Program-made: the position numbers and the translations under genes | Shown: positions 4,761-29,342 of the stretch, in pieces | How positions within the stretch are numbered: the stretch's first letter is position 1 | Layout: each line of letters begins with the position of its first letter | From: a virus | DNA: 29,342 nucleotides | Reading direction: 5' to 3' (one strand) | IMG/VR virus record: IMGVR_UViG_3300020438_000189 | Location: 1 to 29,342 of that record | The notes under the pieces: model-generated | What the model saw: the letters and a program-made list of their open reading frames with translations, nothing else | Databases searched by the model: none | What the model was told of the DNA's origin: nothing

Positions 4761-5684
4761 ATGCCTTTACCAACAGTAACACAACCAAACTTTGAAGGGA
4801 AAAGTGCTGGGTTTTATATCAGTGCCGCCCTACAAGCAGTAAATTCATTAGACTACTTTACAATGATGGAAAATGTGAAGTACAAATCAAACATCACTCG
4901 TATTGAGGGAACATCAATGGTTCATGATGCTACTTGTGATTTTACCGAAAATGCAGGAACAACTTTAGCATTAACAGAAAAAACTATTGAGCCAAAATTG
5001 GTTCAAGTAAATCTTGACATTTGTAAGAAGCAACTTTTAGATTCTTGGGAAGCTTTAACAATGAGAGCAGGGGCAGGGGGTAATCCATCAGCTACTTTTG
5101 AAGATTACATTATTTCTTATATAGGTGAGATTATAGCTTCTAACACAGAAAAATGTATATGGACAGGCAACACTGCTAACTCAGGTGAGTTCACAGGAAT
5201 GGTTACAGGTGCAGTAGGATTATTACTTCCAGGTGTAGATGCGACAGTTGTTCAGACCGCAGCTTCAGCTTCACCTTTTACAGCAGCAAATATCTTAGCT
5301 AACTTACAAGCAGGGGTTGATTCTGTTTCAGATGCTTTATATGGTAAAGATGACTTGCATATTTACTTGTCACCAACTTCTTACCAAATGTATATTGCAG
5401 CAGTATCTACTTTAGGATATGTAAATGCTTATCAAATGAATGGTGATTACAAACCTTTATATCAAGGTTTTAAACTTGCTATGTGCAATGGAATGGGTAA
5501 TGATGAGCTTGTAATTGCACAAAAATCAAACATGTTCTTTGGAACTGACTTATTATCTGATGCAACAAGAATAAATATGTTAGACATGAGCCAACTTGAC
5601 GGTAGTGATAATTTACGTGTAGTTTGTCGCTATTCAGCAGGTGTTCAAACTGGTGTAGGTTCAGATATTGTAAGAGTATCATAA
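4761..5684 (+). CDS. Major capsid protein (HK97-like fold expected)
   Basis: 307 residues with an ATG in an A-rich leader. Size, synteny (protease, scaffold, then this gene) and content fit a major capsid protein. The N-terminus (PTVTQPNFEGKSAGFY) resembles capsid proteins of Bacteroidota phages. The middle section (DYIISYIGEIIASNTEKCIW, residues about 114-133) looks like the long spine helix followed by a P-domain core. The C-terminus, ending in VGSDIVRVS, is beta-rich. A hairpin resembling a terminator follows the stop, as expected after a highly expressed gene. The HK97 fold is inferred from the phage type; I cannot run a structural comparison. Confidence 0.75.
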   Translation: MPLPTVTQPNFEGKSAGFYISAALQAVNSLDYFTMMENVKYKSNITRIEGTSMVHDATCDFTENAGTTLALTEKTIEPKLVQVNLDICKKQLLDSWEALTMRAGAGGNPSATFEDYIISYIGEIIASNTEKCIWTGNTANSGEFTGMVTGAVGLLLPGVDATVVQTAASASPFTAANILANLQAGVDSVSDALYGKDDLHIYLSPTSYQMYIAAVSTLGYVNAYQMNGDYKPLYQGFKLAMCNGMGNDELVIAQKSNMFFGTDLLSDATRINMLDMSQLDGSDNLRVVCRYSAGVQTGVGSDIVRVS

Positions 5685-5700
5685 TAAAATTAATCATGAT

Positions 5701-5724
5701 AGCAGGGGTGTAAAAACCCTTGCT
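5701..5724 (+). terminator. Hairpin after the capsid gene
   Basis: AGCAGGGGT pairs with ACCCTTGCT (9 pairs, one G-T wobble) around a 6-base loop, 17 bases after the capsid stop. No real U-run follows (CTCTTAACC), so it may be a weak or partial terminator, or an mRNA-stabilising 3' structure that raises capsid output over the downstream gene. Confidence 0.5.
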
Positions 5725-5751
5725 CTCTTAACCTTTAAAAAATAAAATAAT

Positions 5752-6333
5752 ATGGCTTGTACAAATTTAACAAAAGGTAGAGGACTTGATTGTAATAGAA
5801 TATCAGGAGGTGTCAAAAAAATATTTTTCTCAGTATTTGACCCAAACGTATCTTATACTTATGATGCAACACACCCTTTAGAAATTGATGCGATTGATTG
5901 GAACTCTACTACTATCTTTGAATATGTTATGCCGCTTGGAGTGGCTAGTGTTACTGACACTATTGTTGGTAGTCGTGAAAATGGAACTATCTATTACACT
6001 CCAACTGTTAACATAATTTTAAATAGACTTACAAAAGAAGATCAAAACGAAATAAAACTTTTAGGTCAAACTAAAGTAAGAATTTTTGCACAATTAAACC
6101 AACAGTTAGCTAATGGGCATGACGTGTTTATTGCTTTAGGAATGGCTAACGGAATGGAATTAAATGCAGGAACGATTGATAGTGGGGCAGCATTTGGTGA
6201 CAGAAACGGATACACTATGACCTTTGACGGCATGGAAGCAATACCTTTTGCTTTCTTAGAAGATTATACAACAACTCCATGGGATCAGTCTGGCTTTGTC
6301 AATGAAGCAGGAACATTCCCTACTACTTCTTAA
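5752..6333 (+). CDS. Putative major tail (tube) protein
   Basis: 193 residues. The N-terminus (MACTNLTKGRGLDCNRISGG) is a recognisable start of a structural protein found after the capsid gene in Bacteroidota phages. The C-terminal half (NGYTMTFDGMEAIPFAFLED) has the G-Y-x-x-T-F-x-G-x-E-x-x-P pattern seen in tail tube proteins. Two hairpins, one on each side, isolate this gene, consistent with separately tuned high expression. An alternative is a head decoration protein, given its position directly after the capsid gene and away from the other tail genes. No signal peptide or membrane segment is visible. Confidence 0.5.
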   Translation: MACTNLTKGRGLDCNRISGGVKKIFFSVFDPNVSYTYDATHPLEIDAIDWNSTTIFEYVMPLGVASVTDTIVGSRENGTIYYTPTVNIILNRLTKEDQNEIKLLGQTKVRIFAQLNQQLANGHDVFIALGMANGMELNAGTIDSGAAFGDRNGYTMTFDGMEAIPFAFLEDYTTTPWDQSGFVNEAGTFPTTS

Positions 6334-6365
6334 TCTTATTAGTAGTTTTTATATATTTCTTGATT

Positions 6366-6393
6366 AGAGGGCTTTTTAGCCCTCTTTTCTTTT
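6366..6393 (+). terminator. Strong rho-independent terminator
   Basis: AGAGGGCT (6366-6373), loop TTTT, AGCCCTCT (6378-6385), then TTTCTTTT. It is an 8-pair perfect stem with a T-rich tail, the clearest intrinsic terminator in the window. It ends the capsid/tube transcription unit. The next motif TCTATTATATA starts 24 bases downstream, making a terminator-promoter junction. Confidence 0.85.
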
Positions 6394-6416
6394 ATAGCAA
6401 ATAAAAACAAGGTTTT

Positions 6417-6427
6417 TCTATTATATA
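6417..6427 (+). promoter_or_regulatory. TCTATTATATA motif, copy 3 (putative phage promoter)
   Basis: Exact 11-mer between the terminator at 6366 and the ATG at 6433, with a 5-base gap that contains AGG. Because transcription should stop just upstream, this copy is the strongest positional argument that the motif is a promoter. Confidence 0.6.
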
Positions 6428-6432
6428 GTAGG

Positions 6433-7644
6433 ATGATACAAGCAATCACTAAGACCAATCTAACAACATACCTGCAAACTGAGGATAATAGAATCAACAC
6501 CGCAGTAGCAAGCAGCAATATTAGGCATTTGTTAAAATTTACAAATGTTATGGATAAGTCTGTACAATATTCTTATGGAGCAACAGAAACTATAAATAAT
6601 AGATTTACCAAGTTTACATTTGACTATAATATAATAACTGACATCTATACAGGAAAGGTCAATTTTGAGCCTGCTGGATATTGGACTTATGAAGTATATG
6701 AAGTAAGTTGGATTGGCACTGTATCTGTAACAGCTAATAAAGCACCTGTAAGCGAAACTGATGTATTGCCAGTAAATAATGACAATGGTGTAGTGCAGGG
6801 CTTAGTAACTAAGGGAAAAATGTATGTTGATGAAAAAGCAGGTACAGAACAGGTACAATACACACAGCACCCTGAACCAAGCGGAACAAACTACATTTTC
6901 TATGGTACACCTACTTTTAATAAATACTCTTGTACATTTGACGGAGTTGATGATTTTGTTGCGGTAAATGATTCAGCAGTATTAAGGCCAACAAGTGCAT
7001 TAACAATATCTTTATGGGTAAAACCTAGTGTTTGGGATATAACAACAGGATCTGATACACAGTATATTTTAGGGTGTGTTAGTTCAGGGGGTTGGGGTAT
7101 AAAGTTAGTTAATAGTGGGGGTAATGTTACTACATTACAATTTGAATTAAGAATAGGGTCAGGATATATATATGCTACAATTGATGAAGCAACAACAGAA
7201 GCATTTACAGGTTGGAAAAACATAATAGCAACGTATAACCAAACAACAGGGTTGTCAAAAATTTATCACAACAACGACACTACAGGAACAACAAATGGAA
7301 GTACAACGGCAGGAAACCTGATAAGTTATTCAGGATCACCTGTGCCCTTACTTATTGGTGCTGATGCTGCAAGTGCAACACCAACAGGTGCAGACTTTTT
7401 TAACGGTGCAATAGATGAAGTAGCAATATTTAATACAGAAGTAACCTCAGCACAAAGAACAGAAATATATAACTATGGAGTAGCAGATGATATAGCACAA
7501 ATGGCAGGATTAATAGGGTATTGGAGAATGGGAGATCCTGACGGACAATCTTCATTCCCAACTATTATTGATGTAACTACTAATGGTAACAATGGAACAA
7601 TGACTAATATGACAGCAGCAGACATAACAGGTGATGTACCTTAA
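6433..7644 (+). CDS. Structural protein with C-terminal LamG/concanavalin-like domain
   Basis: 403 residues in two parts. Residues 1 to about 160 form a phage structural domain ending in a TNYIFYG-like segment, as I know from uncultured marine Bacteroidota phage proteins. Residues about 164-403 form a LamG/concanavalin A-like jelly roll: CTFDGVDDFVAVNDS, LTISLWVKP, GWKNIIATYN, GAIDEVAIFN and GLIGYWRMGD are hallmark segments. Such domains usually bind glycans or surface polymers. It heads the block leading to the portal, so it may be displayed on the head, neck or a fibre. The fusion of a virion-attachment domain to a lectin-like domain is seen in the sequence; glycan binding is inferred. Confidence 0.65.
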   Translation: MIQAITKTNLTTYLQTEDNRINTAVASSNIRHLLKFTNVMDKSVQYSYGATETINNRFTKFTFDYNIITDIYTGKVNFEPAGYWTYEVYEVSWIGTVSVTANKAPVSETDVLPVNNDNGVVQGLVTKGKMYVDEKAGTEQVQYTQHPEPSGTNYIFYGTPTFNKYSCTFDGVDDFVAVNDSAVLRPTSALTISLWVKPSVWDITTGSDTQYILGCVSSGGWGIKLVNSGGNVTTLQFELRIGSGYIYATIDEATTEAFTGWKNIIATYNQTTGLSKIYHNNDTTGTTNGSTTAGNLISYSGSPVPLLIGADAASATPTGADFFNGAIDEVAIFNTEVTSAQRTEIYNYGVADDIAQMAGLIGYWRMGDPDGQSSFPTIIDVTTNGNNGTMTNMTAADITGDVP

Positions 7645-19740: not shown

Positions 19741-20469
19741 ATGAAGCAACAAGTTAAGATCAGCAAGGTAAAGGGAAACCCTAACAACCCTAGAATCATT
19801 AAGAATGATAAATTTAAGAAGCTAGTAAAGTCAATACAGGAATTTCCTGAGATGTTAAAGCTTAGGCCTATTGTTGTAGATGAAGATATGATGGTGCTTG
19901 GTGGCAATATGAGATTAAAGGCAAGTAAAGATGCAGGACTAAAAGAAGTGTGGATTGAAATAGCTGAAGGACTTACTGAAGAACAAAAGAAAGAATTTAT
20001 CGTTAAAGACAATGTAGGTTTTGGAGAATGGGAATGGGATATGTTAGCTAATGAATGGGATAGCGTTCAACTAGCTGATTGGGGTTTAGATGTATGGCAA
20101 AATGAAGATGATGTAAAAGAGGAAGAAGTTTATACAAAGAATATTGAAGCGCCCACTTATGAGCCTAAAAATGAAAAGCCAAAAGAAGAAGAACTTTACA
20201 ATGAAGATAAAGTAAAAGAGCTAATAAAAAAGATAGGGCTTTCTAATATAGAAAAGGAAGAAAAAGAATTTTTAATAAAAGCTGCTTACAGGCATACAGT
20301 ATTTAACTATCAAAGTATTGCAGACTTCTATGCTCACTCAAATAAAGAAGTTCAGGAATTAATGGAAGATAGTGCTTTAGTAATAATTGATTTTAATAAA
20401 GCTATTGAAAATGGTTTTGTTAAAGTAAGTGATAAAATTAAAGAACAATATTTAAGCGAATATGAATAA
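19741..20469 (+). CDS. ParB-like (ParB/sulfiredoxin-fold) protein
   Basis: 242 residues. NPRIIKNDKF (16-25), KLRPIVVDE (40-48) and VLGGNMRLKA (52-61) are the ParB N-terminal domain with the GGNxR core motif, followed by FIVKDNVGFGEWEWDMLANE, typical of phage ParB-like proteins often linked to DNA methyltransferases. A charged linker (about 110-160) leads to a C-terminal helical domain (FLIKAAYRHTVFNYQSIADF) also found with such proteins. No chromosome-partition context (no ParA or parS). In phages such ParB-like domains occur in DNA base-modification operons. It overlaps the glycosyltransferase-like gene by 8 bases, so the two very likely work together. Confidence 0.75.
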   Translation: MKQQVKISKVKGNPNNPRIIKNDKFKKLVKSIQEFPEMLKLRPIVVDEDMMVLGGNMRLKASKDAGLKEVWIEIAEGLTEEQKKEFIVKDNVGFGEWEWDMLANEWDSVQLADWGLDVWQNEDDVKEEEVYTKNIEAPTYEPKNEKPKEEELYNEDKVKELIKKIGLSNIEKEEKEFLIKAAYRHTVFNYQSIADFYAHSNKEVQELMEDSALVIIDFNKAIENGFVKVSDKIKEQYLSEYE

Positions 20470-21310
20470 AGATTTTGCAGTATTTATATTAACACACGGA
20501 AGGCCTGATAATGTTGTTACTTATAATACAATAAAAAATCAAGGTTACACAGGAGATATTTATATAGTAATTGATAATGAAGATAAGTCAGCAGATACAT
20601 ATTATAAAAATTTTGGTGATAAAGTAATAATGTTTGACAAGAAAGCCATATCAAAAACTTTTGATGAAGCAGATAATTTTGAAGATAGAAGGACAATCGT
20701 ATATGCTAGAAATGCCAGTTTTAAAATTGCTAAAGATTTAGGAATTAAATATTTTATGCAATTAGATGATGATTATACATTATTTCAATATAAGCTAATC
20801 GTTAAAAATAAACCTGTACATAGTGAAGTCAAAAATTTAGATAGTATATTTAACTCGTTAATAGATTATTATAAAACAATTTCTGCAAAAAGTATAGCTA
20901 TTGCACAGGGTGGAGATTTTATAGGTGGTATTGATAATGGGAATAGGGCTTACAGATTTAGTAAAAGAAAATGTATGAATAGTTTTATTTGTTCTACTGA
21001 AAGGCCTTTTAAATTCAATGGAAGAATAAATGAAGATGTAAATACTTACACTAATTCAGCAAGTAAAGGGTTTTTATTTCTTACTATACCTGAATTATGT
21101 CTAGTTCAAAAACAAACACAAAGTAATAAAGGTGGTATGACAGATATATATCAAGCAAAAGGAACTTATATAAAATCTTTTTATTCAGTTATTTTTCAAC
21201 CTTCAAGTGTTAGTGTTAATATGATGAAAACAAGTAATTCAAGATTACACCATAATATTAATTGGAAAACAACAGCCCCTTTAATTTTAGAAGAAAAATA
21301 TAAAAAATAA
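20462..21310 (+). CDS. TET-associated-glycosyltransferase-like enzyme
   Basis: 282 residues. The N-terminal HGRPDNVVTYNTI (12-24), IYIVIDNED (33-41), FDKKAISKTFDEADNF (58-73), RRTIVYARNA (76-85) and MQLDDDYTLF (99-108) match the GT-A type glycosyltransferase family predicted to sugar-modify oxidised bases in phage DNA (TAGT). LDDDY is the metal-binding DxD-like motif. The conserved order of motifs is complete and the length fits. No TET/JBP dioxygenase or hydroxymethylase is visible in the window, so the acceptor base is unclear. It is encoded with a ParB-like protein and just before the terminase, as DNA-modification genes often are. Target could also be RNA or protein. Confidence 0.65.
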   Translation: MNKDFAVFILTHGRPDNVVTYNTIKNQGYTGDIYIVIDNEDKSADTYYKNFGDKVIMFDKKAISKTFDEADNFEDRRTIVYARNASFKIAKDLGIKYFMQLDDDYTLFQYKLIVKNKPVHSEVKNLDSIFNSLIDYYKTISAKSIAIAQGGDFIGGIDNGNRAYRFSKRKCMNSFICSTERPFKFNGRINEDVNTYTNSASKGFLFLTIPELCLVQKQTQSNKGGMTDIYQAKGTYIKSFYSVIFQPSSVSVNMMKTSNSRLHHNINWKTTAPLILEEKYKK

Positions 21311-21664
21311 ATGGAACAAAATAGAACAAAGATTAACAAAGAGAGATTATTAAAAGCTTTAGAGTCAAGTCTAGGAGTAATTACAACTGCATTAAAAGCA
21401 ACTGATCTTTCAAGAACTAACTTTTACAAGTGGCTAAAAGAAGATGAAGAATTTGCAGCTAAGGTTGAGGAAATAGAAAACATACAGCAAGACTTTATTA
21501 AGTCAAAGTATTACGAATGTGTAAAAGACAAAGTGCCTGCTGTTGTAATACACGCTGCTAAGACTAGACTTGGTTGGAATGAAACCAACAGATTAGATGT
21601 AACCTCAGGAGATAAAGCAATTAATATGCCTATCATAACATTTATCGAAACTGATACTGAATAA
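21311..21664 (+). CDS. terS: Terminase small subunit
   Basis: 117 residues, starting directly after the glycosyltransferase stop. KERLLKALESSLGVITTALK followed by TDLSRTNFYKWLKEDEEFAA is the N-terminal helix-turn-helix of small terminases of Bacteroidota phages; a helical oligomerisation core follows (VEEIENIQQDFIKSKYY), then AAKTRLGWNE. It recognises packaging-initiation DNA and activates the large subunit. The 3' end overlaps the apparent start of the large subunit in another frame. Confidence 0.75.
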   Translation: MEQNRTKINKERLLKALESSLGVITTALKATDLSRTNFYKWLKEDEEFAAKVEEIENIQQDFIKSKYYECVKDKVPAVVIHAAKTRLGWNETNRLDVTSGDKAINMPIITFIETDTE

Positions 21665-22853
21665 AAAATACAACCCACTCTTTGAATCTGATGCTCGTTA
21701 TTTTATTATAACAGGTGGTAGGGGATCAGGCAAGTCGTTTGCTGTAACTGCTTTTTTAACTTTACTTACAATGACAAAGGGTATTAGAATACTCTTTACA
21801 AGGTTTACAATGGTTTCAGCCCATTTGTCAATTATTCCTGAATTTTTAGAAAAGATAGGGCTACTAGGGTTTGATGATATTTTTAGTATTAATAAAACAG
21901 AAGTGTTAAATACAAGCAATCAATCTGACATACTATTTAGAGGGATCAAGACATCAGCAGGTAATCAGACAGCTAGTTTAAAGTCTTTACAAGGTATTAG
22001 CTGTTGGGTATTAGATGAGGCAGAAGAATTAATTGATGAAGATATATTTGATACTATTGATTTAAGTATTAGAGAAAAAAACAAACAGAATAGAATCATT
22101 TTAATTCTAAACCCTGTTACTAAAGAACATTGGATATACAAAAGGTTTTTTGAGGACAAGGGCGTTGAAGCAGGTTTTAATGGCTTTAAAGACAATGTGT
22201 GTTATATCCATAGTACATACCTAGACAATAAAGAAAACCTCTCACAAAGCTTCCTAGAGCGTATTAAGACTATAAAGCACAACAACTTTAAAAAATACAC
22301 GCACAAGATAATGGGGGGTTGGTTAGACAAGGCAGAAGGTGTTGTATTTGAAAACTGGTCAATAGGTGAGTTTAATCCTGATGGATTACAAACGTCTTGT
22401 GGTATGGACTTTGGTTTTAGTATTGATCCTGATAGCTTGACAGAAGTAGCAATAGATAAACGCAAAAGAAAGATATATTTAAAAGAACATATTTACAAGA
22501 ATGGATTAAAATCACAAGAACTTGCTCAAATTGTTTTAGATAAAGTTGGCAACAAGCTTATAATTGCAGATTCAGCAGAACCAAGACTAATTGCTGACTT
22601 AAAACATTTAGGTGTAAATATAAAAGCAGTAAAGAAAGGAACAATTGAAAGTGGTATAACTCGTATGCAAGATTATGAATTAGTAATAACACCTGAATCT
22701 ACCAACATAGCTAAAGAATTAAACAACTATATATATAGTGATAAATCATCTAAGCTTTATGTCGATAATTACAACCATGCTATCGACGGAATAAGATACA
22801 ATGTTATATTTCACTTAGACAACCCAAATGCAGGGAAGTATTTTGTGCAATAA
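21657..22853 (+). CDS. terL: Terminase large subunit (non-canonical start)
   Basis: About 398 residues if begun at a CTG at 21657. The Walker A motif GGRGSGKS (residues 20-27 from that CTG) lies upstream of the first ATG at 21771, so that ATG cannot be the true start. The frame is open back to a stop at 21636, and contains only CTG (21651, 21657) and ATA (21654) as near-cognate starts. Walker B is WVLDEAEE (117-124), the coupling motif ILILNP is near 148, and the nuclease motifs are MDFGFSIDP (250-258), IIADSAE (302-308) and NHAIDGIRY (373-381). It is a two-domain ATPase-nuclease that packages DNA. CTG start, a +1 shift from the small subunit, or a sequence error are possible. Confidence 0.85.
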   Translation: MNKKYNPLFESDARYFIITGGRGSGKSFAVTAFLTLLTMTKGIRILFTRFTMVSAHLSIIPEFLEKIGLLGFDDIFSINKTEVLNTSNQSDILFRGIKTSAGNQTASLKSLQGISCWVLDEAEELIDEDIFDTIDLSIREKNKQNRIILILNPVTKEHWIYKRFFEDKGVEAGFNGFKDNVCYIHSTYLDNKENLSQSFLERIKTIKHNNFKKYTHKIMGGWLDKAEGVVFENWSIGEFNPDGLQTSCGMDFGFSIDPDSLTEVAIDKRKRKIYLKEHIYKNGLKSQELAQIVLDKVGNKLIIADSAEPRLIADLKHLGVNIKAVKKGTIESGITRMQDYELVITPESTNIAKELNNYIYSDKSSKLYVDNYNHAIDGIRYNVIFHLDNPNAGKYFVQ

Positions 22854-25712: not shown

Positions 25713-27131
25713 ATGGCAATCACAATAGAACAGAAACCTTTATATAACAACTTCCCTGCCGGACAGCAGATTATATATACAGTATCTGAACCAACAGTAG
25801 CTACTTATTTCAATTTTAAATACATAGCAGAAGTTTACATTAGCACAGGAGTGACTATTAATTTTGCAAGTACATCATTAAGGGTTGCTATATTTAAAAC
25901 AACACCAAACAATGCAGGGGTAGGTATTTTTGATTTACAGCCATTTTTGGAAAGCTATGTAACTGCTCAAAACACAGGTGTTGGTGGAACAAATCAAAGT
26001 TCTAGTGAATACAAGACAGTAGATTACAGCATAGACACACCACACCCTATACATTTGATAGATAAATACAGTAAAAATGCTATGGGTATTCGTGGTTTAG
26101 CAGTAAGATTTAAAGCTGAGGGATCAACTACTGCAACAGGCGCAGTAGCAGATTTAGGGTTTACTACAAATGGACGTATGTTGTATTTTTTTAATGGAGT
26201 ATTATATCAAGATAACCCCTTAACGTATAGCAGTGGAAATTATGGTTTTAATTTAGGTGCTGCTGACTTATATACTATCAGAACAGGTGATAAATTTTTA
26301 ACTAATGCACCGACTACTCAATATGCTAATATTGATGATTATGGAACAGTTGGTATGTTAAACTTTTTACCAGGAGGAACATCAGATAGAGTAAATGAAT
26401 TAAATTTTGAATACTTTAAAAAAGACGGATCAAGCGTAACAGAAACTAGCACTCAGGGGTACAGTGCTGGTGGTTGCACAAATTTAGATAATGTAAAGTG
26501 CATGTTTTTATTTGCAGGAATTTATCCTGCTAATCTTAGAAATTGGAGTACAGTATTTCAAGGCTTAGTAACAGCAGGCACAATAGACTATTATACTGTT
26601 CAAGCATCTTCAACAGCTAGTAACAATTTATCACAAAAGTATACTATTAACATTAATTGCCCTAACACAAAAGGGTATGAAAGTGTCAGACTTACTTGGT
26701 TGAATCAATGGGGTGCTTGGGATTATTATACATTCACACAAAAGTCTGTTAAATCATTAACAACAAACAGCACTACTTACACTCAAATGTCAGGATCTTG
26801 GAATGATAGTAAATATTTAATTCATGGATATAAAGGTGGTAGAAAGAATTTTAGAGTAAACTCAACTGAAAGGATAGTAGTCAATACAGACTATGTAACA
26901 GAAGAACATTCAGCGTGGTTTGAAGAATTAATAAATAGCACAGAAGTTTATATATTAAAAGGGTTTGATGCAAGTGAAACCAACCCCTACAACACAATAA
27001 CAAATAAATATGTAGAACCTGTATTAATCACAACATCTGATTATACTAGAAAAACAGTAGCTAATGACAGATTAATACAATATACATTCAACATGGAAAG
27101 AAACAAAACAAGACAAACACAGACTGCATAA
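25713..27131 (+). CDS. Large distal-tail/baseplate protein
   Basis: 472 residues in all-beta arrangement. The N-terminus (MAITIEQKPLYNNFPAGQQI) and internal features (VAIFKTTPNN, FDLQPFLESYV, LTWLNQWGAWDYYTFTQKS, then ERIVVNTDYVTEEHSAWFEE and YIQYTFNME-like end) match tail proteins of Bacteroidota phages, where the segment 'W-L-N-x-x-G-x-x-D-Y-Y-T-F' is conserved. It probably forms part of the tail tip. It overlaps the next gene start by one base (TAATG), so both are made together. Confidence 0.6.
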   Translation: MAITIEQKPLYNNFPAGQQIIYTVSEPTVATYFNFKYIAEVYISTGVTINFASTSLRVAIFKTTPNNAGVGIFDLQPFLESYVTAQNTGVGGTNQSSSEYKTVDYSIDTPHPIHLIDKYSKNAMGIRGLAVRFKAEGSTTATGAVADLGFTTNGRMLYFFNGVLYQDNPLTYSSGNYGFNLGAADLYTIRTGDKFLTNAPTTQYANIDDYGTVGMLNFLPGGTSDRVNELNFEYFKKDGSSVTETSTQGYSAGGCTNLDNVKCMFLFAGIYPANLRNWSTVFQGLVTAGTIDYYTVQASSTASNNLSQKYTININCPNTKGYESVRLTWLNQWGAWDYYTFTQKSVKSLTTNSTTYTQMSGSWNDSKYLIHGYKGGRKNFRVNSTERIVVNTDYVTEEHSAWFEELINSTEVYILKGFDASETNPYNTITNKYVEPVLITTSDYTRKTVANDRLIQYTFNMERNKTRQTQTA

Positions 27132-29342
27132 TGAGCGTACAGTTAATTTTATACCCCCAAATAGATTTAAATCAAGAATTTATGACAGATGCCATAGATT
27201 TTAGTTTAGTGGACTTTGCAGCTAATTATGACACAACAGTATCACCACCTATTTATTTAGACATAATGGCTAATGCGTCAGGTAGTGTTGGGAGTTGGAG
27301 AAGATTCAGACAAACATCAAATGGTACTATGGCTTTGCCTAACGGCACGTCAGGGGGTAACCTTGTTCTTAATGCTATCACTCAAGCAAATGCAGCAGGT
27401 AGATCAGGAGTATATCAAAAGCTAGGTGGATTAATAGTAGGTGCAAAATACACAATGATTGTAGAATATACAACAGGTGCAGGTGTAATACAATTAGCAA
27501 GGTATAACAACTTAAATAATGGAAGTGAAAGTGCGTGGGAATCATTAGCTAATGTATCAACAACATCTACTTTTTCATGGGAATTTACAGCCCTTACAAC
27601 TACTGACACAGTATTTCTTACTTACCTTTATCAAGGTGCAGACAACCTTACAGTTCAAAGTATTTCTGTAACTCCTTCTGCTTCACAAACTTATGAAGGA
27701 CAAGTAATATGCGACTTATACGAAGATGAAGAAATACCATTAACTTTAAGTGTTGATGATTTTAAAAATGTAGCAGAAAAAGTACAGTCGTACTCTAAAG
27801 ATTTTAACTTACCTGCAACTAAAAGAAACAACAAGATTTTTGGCAGCATCTTTGAAATAACAAGATCTATTGGTGATGTCAATTCTTTTAACCCTTATAT
27901 AAACACTAGGGCTGTATTAAAGCAAAATGGGTTAATGTTGTTTGACGGCTCTTTAAAGCTAATAGACATTCAAGATAAAGAAGGGGAAATAAGCTATAAT
28001 GTTAATTTGTTTGCACAAACAATCGCTTTGGCAGATACCTTAAAAAATAAAACTTTTGATAATATTAATTTTGATGAGTTAGAACATACTTATGATAAAG
28101 CAGCTATTAAAGGGAGTTTCTCTACAAACGGACTGCCTTTATCTAACCCTTTGCCAACAGGCACTTATGCAGGAACAGCAGGTGCTAGTGTTACAGATGT
28201 GTTGAAATACCCATTTGTAGATTGGACAGGGCAAATACTTATAGCTAATGGTGCAACAGGAAATTTCGCAACAGCAGGTAATCCTGAATTAACATCTTTT
28301 GAGCAAGCTTTTCGTCCGTTTATAAAAATTAAATATTTAATAGATAGAATATTTAGCGAATCAGACTACACATATTCATCAACTTTATTTGACAGCTCAG
28401 GTTTTGGTAATTTATTTATGGATTTTAATTGGGGGGGGGAAAGCATGCCGAGTGTAATTGGTGATACAAGTTATACGGCAACTTATTATTATGACGCAAG
28501 TGCATCAACCCCAACCTTTGAAAACGGCACATCTACTTTTGAAACTTTACCATTATTAGATAACTCAGTAACAGGAGGACAAACTACATCATCTGTACCC
28601 CCTGATTATAATACAACAGGGGGAGATATTTACAAAATTGTTGCAACAACCGACAATCAAGTTTACGATATAAATTATAATTGGTATATAATACATCAAG
28701 GTGGCTCAGCTTTTACAGCCGAAGTTCAATGGCAATATTATGATGCTAGTGCTACCTCTACAACTACAATAGATTTTCATTCGGAAACCACTTTAATTAA
28801 TGATGTGATAACTTATGCAGGTAATATGAATATTGCTTTAGACACAGGTGATAAACTTTGGGCTGAATACAGAATTGTAAGTCCAGGGACAGGTGCAAAT
28901 TTAAGAGTTTCACAAACACAAACATCAACAACTACTTTTAACCTTACTAGTTCAGTAGTTACAACCTCAACTCTAAATAGTCAAAGGGGGGAAATTAATC
29001 AATGGGAGTTTCTTAAAGGTATTTTTACAATGTTTAACTTAATAACATTAGAGGATAAAAGCAATCCTGGAAATATTATTATAGAATCTTATAGTGATGT
29101 ATTTACTAATATAGGTGCAGGAACAACATTAGCAGAAAGAGGAATTAACCATGATTGGACAGATAAAGTAGATTTAAAAGATATAAAATTAAAACCCTTA
29201 AATGATTTAAAGAAAAAGACTGTTTTTAAATATGAAGAAGATGAAGAAGATTATATTTTTAATGTATATAAAAGATCAACAAACGGACACTTATACGGAA
29301 GCAAAGTATTTAGTGCAGCAGGATTAACAGTCTTGGAAGGGG
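27131..29342 (+). CDS. Very large distal-tail protein, truncated by window end (continues at 1-558)
   Basis: 737 residues to the edge with no stop; 186 more codons including the stop lie at 1-558, giving about 920 residues. The N-terminal part resembles a carbohydrate-binding-like insertion (residues about 35-190: beta-rich, with GLIVGAKYTMIVEYT), followed by DLYEDEEIPLTLSVDDFKNV and KDFNLPATKRNNKIFGS, which are standard in tail-tip proteins, and near the end INQWEFLKGIFTMFNLI and IIIESYSDVF. An AT-poor run of nine G at 28431-28439 lies in frame (Trp-Gly-Gly-Glu). It is the likely hub or side of the tail tip. The join at the window ends needs a one-base adjustment. Confidence 0.7.
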   Translation, partial: MSVQLILYPQIDLNQEFMTDAIDFSLVDFAANYDTTVSPPIYLDIMANASGSVGSWRRFRQTSNGTMALPNGTSGGNLVLNAITQANAAGRSGVYQKLGGLIVGAKYTMIVEYTTGAGVIQLARYNNLNNGSESAWESLANVSTTSTFSWEFTALTTTDTVFLTYLYQGADNLTVQSISVTPSASQTYEGQVICDLYEDEEIPLTLSVDDFKNVAEKVQSYSKDFNLPATKRNNKIFGSIFEITRSIGDVNSFNPYINTRAVLKQNGLMLFDGSLKLIDIQDKEGEISYNVNLFAQTIALADTLKNKTFDNINFDELEHTYDKAAIKGSFSTNGLPLSNPLPTGTYAGTAGASVTDVLKYPFVDWTGQILIANGATGNFATAGNPELTSFEQAFRPFIKIKYLIDRIFSESDYTYSSTLFDSSGFGNLFMDFNWGGESMPSVIGDTSYTATYYYDASASTPTFENGTSTFETLPLLDNSVTGGQTTSSVPPDYNTTGGDIYKIVATTDNQVYDINYNWYIIHQGGSAFTAEVQWQYYDASATSTTTIDFHSETTLINDVITYAGNMNIALDTGDKLWAEYRIVSPGTGANLRVSQTQTSTTTFNLTSSVVTTSTLNSQRGEINQWEFLKGIFTMFNLITLEDKSNPGNIIIESYSDVFTNIGAGTTLAERGINHDWTDKVDLKDIKLKPLNDLKKKTVFKYEEDEEDYIFNVYKRSTNGHLYGSKVFSAAGLTVLEG

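Follow-up and report, generated by a model that had tools for sequence, protein, structure and literature searches.

The TET-associated glycosyltransferases (TAGTs) form a family reportedly defined by Iyer et al. in 2013. One enzyme assigned to this family (PF20691), the beta-glucosyl-HMC-alpha-glucosyltransferase (ggt) of phage T6, acts on DNA (PMC13216743). Solitary TAGT genes occur in 288 of the 753 phage genomes that encode these glycosyltransferases, and their function is described as unknown in the same study (PMC13216743). A second line of earlier work concerns ParB domains, one of which, occurring in fusion with an adenine methylase, has been reported to nick DNA (PMC5512222).

Here we analyze a viral DNA of 29,342 nucleotides (the window) in which overlapping genes for a ParB-like protein and a TAGT had been proposed, in a preliminary description, to constitute an undescribed two-gene modification system. 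One part of that proposal is upheld, in that the TAGT belongs to a real and conserved two-gene unit, but the ParB domain is not its constant partner; that role falls to the C-terminal domain of the ParB-like protein.

Organization of the locus

Comparison of the tail-protein open reading frames indicates that the record is a complete, circularly permuted genome, as its completeness had already been surmised: the first (1-558) and last (27131-29341) reading frames are two halves of a single tail protein, the last aligning with residues 1-704 and the first with residues 705-887 of an 888-residue relative, with a one-base discrepancy at the junction. The two genes of interest lie on the plus strand and overlap as initially described, an assignment that rests on the reading frames as well as on Pfam, PHROG and AlphaFold2 (AF2) analyses. 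Gene 1 (19741-20469; 242 residues) encodes the ParB-like protein, and Gene 2 (20462-21310; 282 residues) encodes the TAGT. The stop and start of the two genes share eight bases (20462-20469, plus strand; GAATATGAATAA), an arrangement that suggests translational coupling and that is also typical of their relatives.

Directly after the TAGT gene, and on the same strand, begins the gene for the terminase small subunit (terS, 21311-21664; PF20901, E=0.0012; phrog_4044, E=1.9e-5), followed by that for the large subunit (terL, 21771-22853; PF04466, E=1.2e-27). A Walker A sequence, GGRGSGKS, is found in the terL reading frame upstream of its first ATG (21650-21771, reading frame checked), and because this in-frame extension contains no ATG, GTG or TTG, use of a rare start codon is suggested. 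In an E. coli prophage the pair is located between the lysis genes and the terminase, while in phage c5 it lies 79 bases after cos.

Gene 2 is clearly a TAGT, matching PF20691 with E=3.7e-36 and 125.4 bits against a curated cut-off of 27.5, and phrog_842 with E=7.5e-72. Its AF2 model (pLDDT 86, pTM 0.87) adopts a GT-A fold with the acidic metal motif. The glycosyltransferase motifs, previously noted as intact, are indeed so: across 49 TAGT relatives, D103 and D104 of the DDD motif (residues 102-104; 20765-20773, plus strand), a predicted metal and nucleotide-sugar site, are invariant and D102 is at least 90% conserved; N190 and D192 of the NED motif (residues 190-192; 21029-21037, plus strand), the predicted catalytic base region, are invariant and E191 is at least 90% conserved; and the HH motif (H263-H264; 21248-21253, plus strand) is invariant. 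Grouping of the predicted structure with protein glycosyltransferases had been named in the preliminary description as an argument against a DNA substrate. The model is that of a generic GT-A enzyme, to which nucleoside, polysaccharide, teichoic-acid and protein glycosyltransferases are matched alike.

A constant companion of the TAGT

Gene 1 is composed of two domains. The N-terminal ParB/Srx domain (residues 1-110; 19741-20070, plus strand) retains intact NPNNPR and GGNMRLKA motifs. The protein matches phrog_620 (E=1.3e-33) and, slightly below the cut-off, Pfam ParB_N (PF02195; 4e-5). In the AF2 model (pLDDT 84.8) this domain resembles ParB CTPase structures, the best being the ParB-CTPgammaS complex 7bnr (E=2e-5), and a BFVD fold search returned mainly ParB-type proteins. 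A ParB_N CTPase domain is thus present, as judged by the fold match to ParB-nucleotide complexes and a Pfam score just short of the cut-off. The same ParB_N family also forms the N-terminus of phage N4/N6 DNA methyltransferases, as indicated by Pfam and by a PADLOC MTase_II match to this region; ParB_N and N6_N4_Mtase domains are fused in three of the loci collected (L050, L226 and L227), and in Streptococcus phage Javan128 a ParB_N-methyltransferase fusion lies shortly upstream of the terminase. By Pfam, the N6_N4_Mtase domain is absent from Gene 1. The contig of locus L050 bears both a ParB_N-N6_N4_Mtase gene (5438-6616) and a standalone partner-TAGT pair.

The second domain (residues about 126-235; 20116-20445, plus strand) comprises about 110 residues and is all-helical in the AF2 model. 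Alignments reveal a conserved extended segment, YxxKIxxPxYEP, and a set of near-invariant residues (Y131, P138, Y140, P147, R184, H185, Y197, E209, S211 and D217), although divergent proteins from Porphyromonas and Arsenicibacter do not conserve Y131. Assignment of this domain to a known fold was rejected, as searches of Pfam, NCBIfam and PDB structures gave no match and remote sequence searches of the PDB gave no convincing one; likewise, a literature search returned no account of the domain or of the function of ynaK, the E. coli K-12 gene discussed below. In the window the domain is fused to the C-terminus of ParB, and in many relatives it stands alone.

The association of this domain with the TAGT was assessed in loci drawn from the best 80 matches of each scan, so that percentages refer to sampled loci. 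A first scan of genome contigs with the TAGT gave no match. Among records collected for their TAGT, 88 of 90 contain the partner domain, and the remaining two have their TAGT match at the edge of a contig. A search with the partner domain identified, among the matches listed, a further 73 viral and 48 bacterial genome loci, and a TAGT is present in every one of these 121 (73/73 and 48/48, respectively), directly beside the partner domain in 111 and one gene away in 10. Similarly, the partner domain occurs in 28 annotated phage records, every one of them a TAGT record, and a divergent Porphyromonas phage also carries the domain. A TAGT without the partner is seen in the Vibrio 1.124.O/henriette enzymes, in T6 ggt and in the phages LL-Ku and Ld17. 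The partner domain is therefore an undescribed but constant companion of the TAGT.

Patterns of sequence divergence lead to the same view. In 106 non-redundant loci in which both domains are fused, TAGT distances correlate with partner distances at r=0.61 and with ParB_N distances at r=0.28 (bootstrap interval of the difference 0.22-0.43). Controlling for the partner abolishes the correlation with ParB_N (partial correlation -0.03). The partner, and not ParB, has thus co-evolved with the TAGT, although linked genes share a history, so that co-evolution supports rather than proves contact between the two proteins. The idea of ParB as an essential TAGT partner was accordingly rejected, both because ParB_N distances do not follow TAGT distances and because many loci have a partner domain with no fused ParB domain, as is the case in roughly one in three of the sampled viral carriers; in loci L071, L076 and L079 the ParB_N domain resides in a separate gene. 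ParB is an exchangeable part of the cassette.

Because the pair recurs in 142 non-redundant sampled loci (the partner being recognized in 137) and purifying selection maintains both genes (dN/dS 0.03-0.19), its occurrence is not due to chance. No third conserved pathway gene or enzyme was found near the pair in these 142 loci, only terminase genes recurring next to it, and no natural partner-TAGT fusion was found among the viral and bacterial loci listed. The smallest conserved unit is the pair itself. An extra gene of about 930 bases separates partner domain and TAGT in loci L109, L111, L114, L118, L120, L129, L131, L138 and L142; in the five loci read it encodes a fusion of a histidine phosphatase and a cytidylyltransferase, similar to a CobC-type phosphatase and glycerol-3-phosphate cytidylyltransferase, which Pfam confirmed in three (His_Phos_1 and CTP_transf_like). 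On a Verrucomicrobia contig, a class I methyltransferase-like gene occupies this position (L232, 5883-6719).

Carriers of the pair include phages and prophages from a broad set of bacteria as well as at least one archaeal virus, with hosts among the Bacteroidota, Bacillota, Pseudomonadota, Actinomycetota and haloarchaea, and bacterial partner-domain loci are spread over many phyla. Among 5,426 complete genomes of E. coli, 885 contain at least 80% of the version found in this species. In the Rac prophage of K-12 (NZ_CP010439.1, 2165858-2166111), ynaK is a 254-base remnant from the beginning of the ParB-partner gene; the sequence for the partner domain has been lost, as has the TAGT. In the Lactobacillus phages LL-Ku and Ld17 the partner has been lost and the TAGT genes are broken by deletions, and in PMBT4 an internal stop interrupts the TAGT close to its beginning. 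These broken genes indicate that the system can be dispensed with, as would be expected if it served as an accessory means of protection.

Possible acceptors and mode of action

The preliminary description had reported seeing neither TET/JBP nor a nucleotide hydroxymethylase, and targeted searches agree. A Pfam scan of the 40 window proteins revealed no 2OG-dioxygenase, hydroxylase or hydroxymethylase and no T4-type alpha- or beta-glucosyltransferase, and a family search for TET/JBP, run without a positive control, returned none from the window, 42 related records or the annotated carriers. The thymidylate-synthase/hydroxymethylase superfamily (PF00303), found in the T6 control, is absent from the window and from seven small annotated carrier phages. 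Such a gene was consequently rejected as a general component, being absent from the window and from nearly all carriers; the 191-195 kb Vibrio phages do contain a member of the thymidylate synthase family.

The best explanation of these data, to which we assign an even chance, is a glycosyltransferase of two components that is expressed late and modifies the DNA of the phage with no separately encoded hydroxylase. The functional unit would consist of the GT-A enzyme and an adaptor, namely the small helical domain that occurs only with TAGT, with or without a fused ParB/Srx domain. The YxxKIxxPxYEP segment and helices of the adaptor probably dock on the TAGT, while the ParB domain, where present, would hold the complex on DNA. 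Expressed together with the packaging genes, the complex would transfer sugar from a nucleotide-sugar donor to phage DNA that has been replicated but not yet packaged, probably at a limited number of sites, and the DNA-borne sugar would provide accessory protection against host nucleases. We infer DNA as the acceptor, and likewise a physical partner-TAGT interaction, late expression in this phage and a protective role. DNA appears the likeliest acceptor because the ParB_N domain is shared with phage N4/N6 DNA methyltransferases, with the Javan128 fusion near the terminase, because the pair itself lies near terminase or cos, and because the T6 TAGT acts on DNA. The inserted phosphatase-cytidylyltransferase gene fits a supply of activated (nucleotide-)sugar.

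As no separate hydroxylase is encoded, the acceptor of the TAGT would be a group native to DNA, or else one prepared by the partner domain. No glycosyltransferase is known to us to use an unmodified DNA base as its substrate, which leaves the best explanation with a genuine gap where the acceptor is concerned. With its all-helical model and conserved extended segment, the partner domain would more naturally be taken for an adaptor than for an acceptor-making enzyme. Only as a tentative suggestion, held with considerably less confidence, do we put forward a self-sufficient, two-protein glycosylation of otherwise unmodified phage DNA at packaging, in which the partner prepares or presents the acceptor and ParB is an optional clamp shared with methyltransferase systems. 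With the partner lacking a fused ParB domain in so many viral carriers, a connection to DNA by way of ParB does not extend to all of them.

An acceptor other than DNA must also be weighed. The TAGT could act on protein, be it the partner domain itself, the terminase or a virion protein, with the partner serving as substrate or chaperone and ParB being incidental. TAGT relatives are named 'GREB1-related' by NCBI, and GREB1 has been reported to be a protein O-GlcNAc transferase; fold matches in the PDB include glycogenin, SunS and collagen galactosyltransferases; the partner is obligate, with the near-invariant tyrosines Y131 and Y140 in its extended segment; and a hydroxylated base would be unnecessary. 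The lack of a conserved Y131 in the divergent proteins from Porphyromonas and Arsenicibacter, the fusion of ParB_N to DNA methyltransferases in other phages and the activity of the T6 enzyme on DNA nonetheless make a protein acceptor doubtful, if a serious contender.

The alternative of a cell-surface or small-molecule acceptor, which the pair would modify for instance to block superinfection, draws on the closeness of the generic GT-A fold to polysaccharide and teichoic-acid enzymes and on the similarity of the inserted cytidylyltransferase to CDP-glycerol and ADP-heptose enzymes. It is very unlikely in view of the position of the pair beside the terminase, the ParB domain fused to or beside the partner, a predicted TAGT fold with no long extra helix suggestive of a membrane anchor, and the use of a single cassette across Gram-negative, Gram-positive and archaeal hosts. 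A classical route, in which the host or an unrecognized enzyme supplies a hydroxylated base that the TAGT then glycosylates as in T6 and the TET phages, can point to the T6 relative, which acts after an adjoining dCMP hydroxymethylase, and to the thymidylate-synthase-family gene of the large Vibrio phages. To our knowledge, however, no hydroxylated base is common to hosts ranging from Bacteroidota, Bacillota, Pseudomonadota and Actinomycetota to haloarchaea, and the seven small phages devoid of a hydroxymethylase-type gene, together with the lack of a third conserved gene near the pair, render this route unlikely.

Relation to known systems

One large TAGT clade now has a defining partner, and because roughly every sixth complete genome of E. 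coli carries the pair, the question of solitary TAGTs becomes testable in laboratory strains of this species. The window TAGT shares with T6 ggt the GT-A fold, the Pfam family and the DDD and ED motifs. The two are nevertheless very distant, as a profile of the window TAGT clade misses T6 ggt (E 0.66), and T6 ggt, unlike the window enzyme, adjoins dCMP hydroxymethylase and has neither a partner domain nearby nor a link to terminase. The T-even glucosyl-HMC system combines dCMP hydroxymethylase with a T4-type glucosyltransferase, neither of which was found in the window. The phage hypermodification systems that pair TET/JBP with TAGT have the glycosyltransferase family in common with the window pair but differ in their TET/JBP component, of which the search without positive control detected none here.

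Comparisons centered on Gene 1 are similarly partial. The ParB CTPases of chromosome and plasmid partition share its N-terminal CTP-binding fold and motifs, whereas Gene 1 has no recognized parS-binding HTH, ends instead in the TAGT-partner domain, and is accompanied by no ParA among the scanned window proteins. The phage ParB_N-N6_N4_Mtase fusions, located upstream of terminase in Javan128, belong to the same ParB_N family, but their enzyme is a methyltransferase and their match to Gene 1 is limited to the ParB part. If DNA is the acceptor, the pair suggests that bases can be glycosylated without first being hydroxylated, with a bearing on restriction, type IV nucleases and DNA-glycosylase defenses. 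We know of no earlier case of DNA glycosylation that proceeds without prior base hydroxylation, and the window pair, should this hold true, would be the first.
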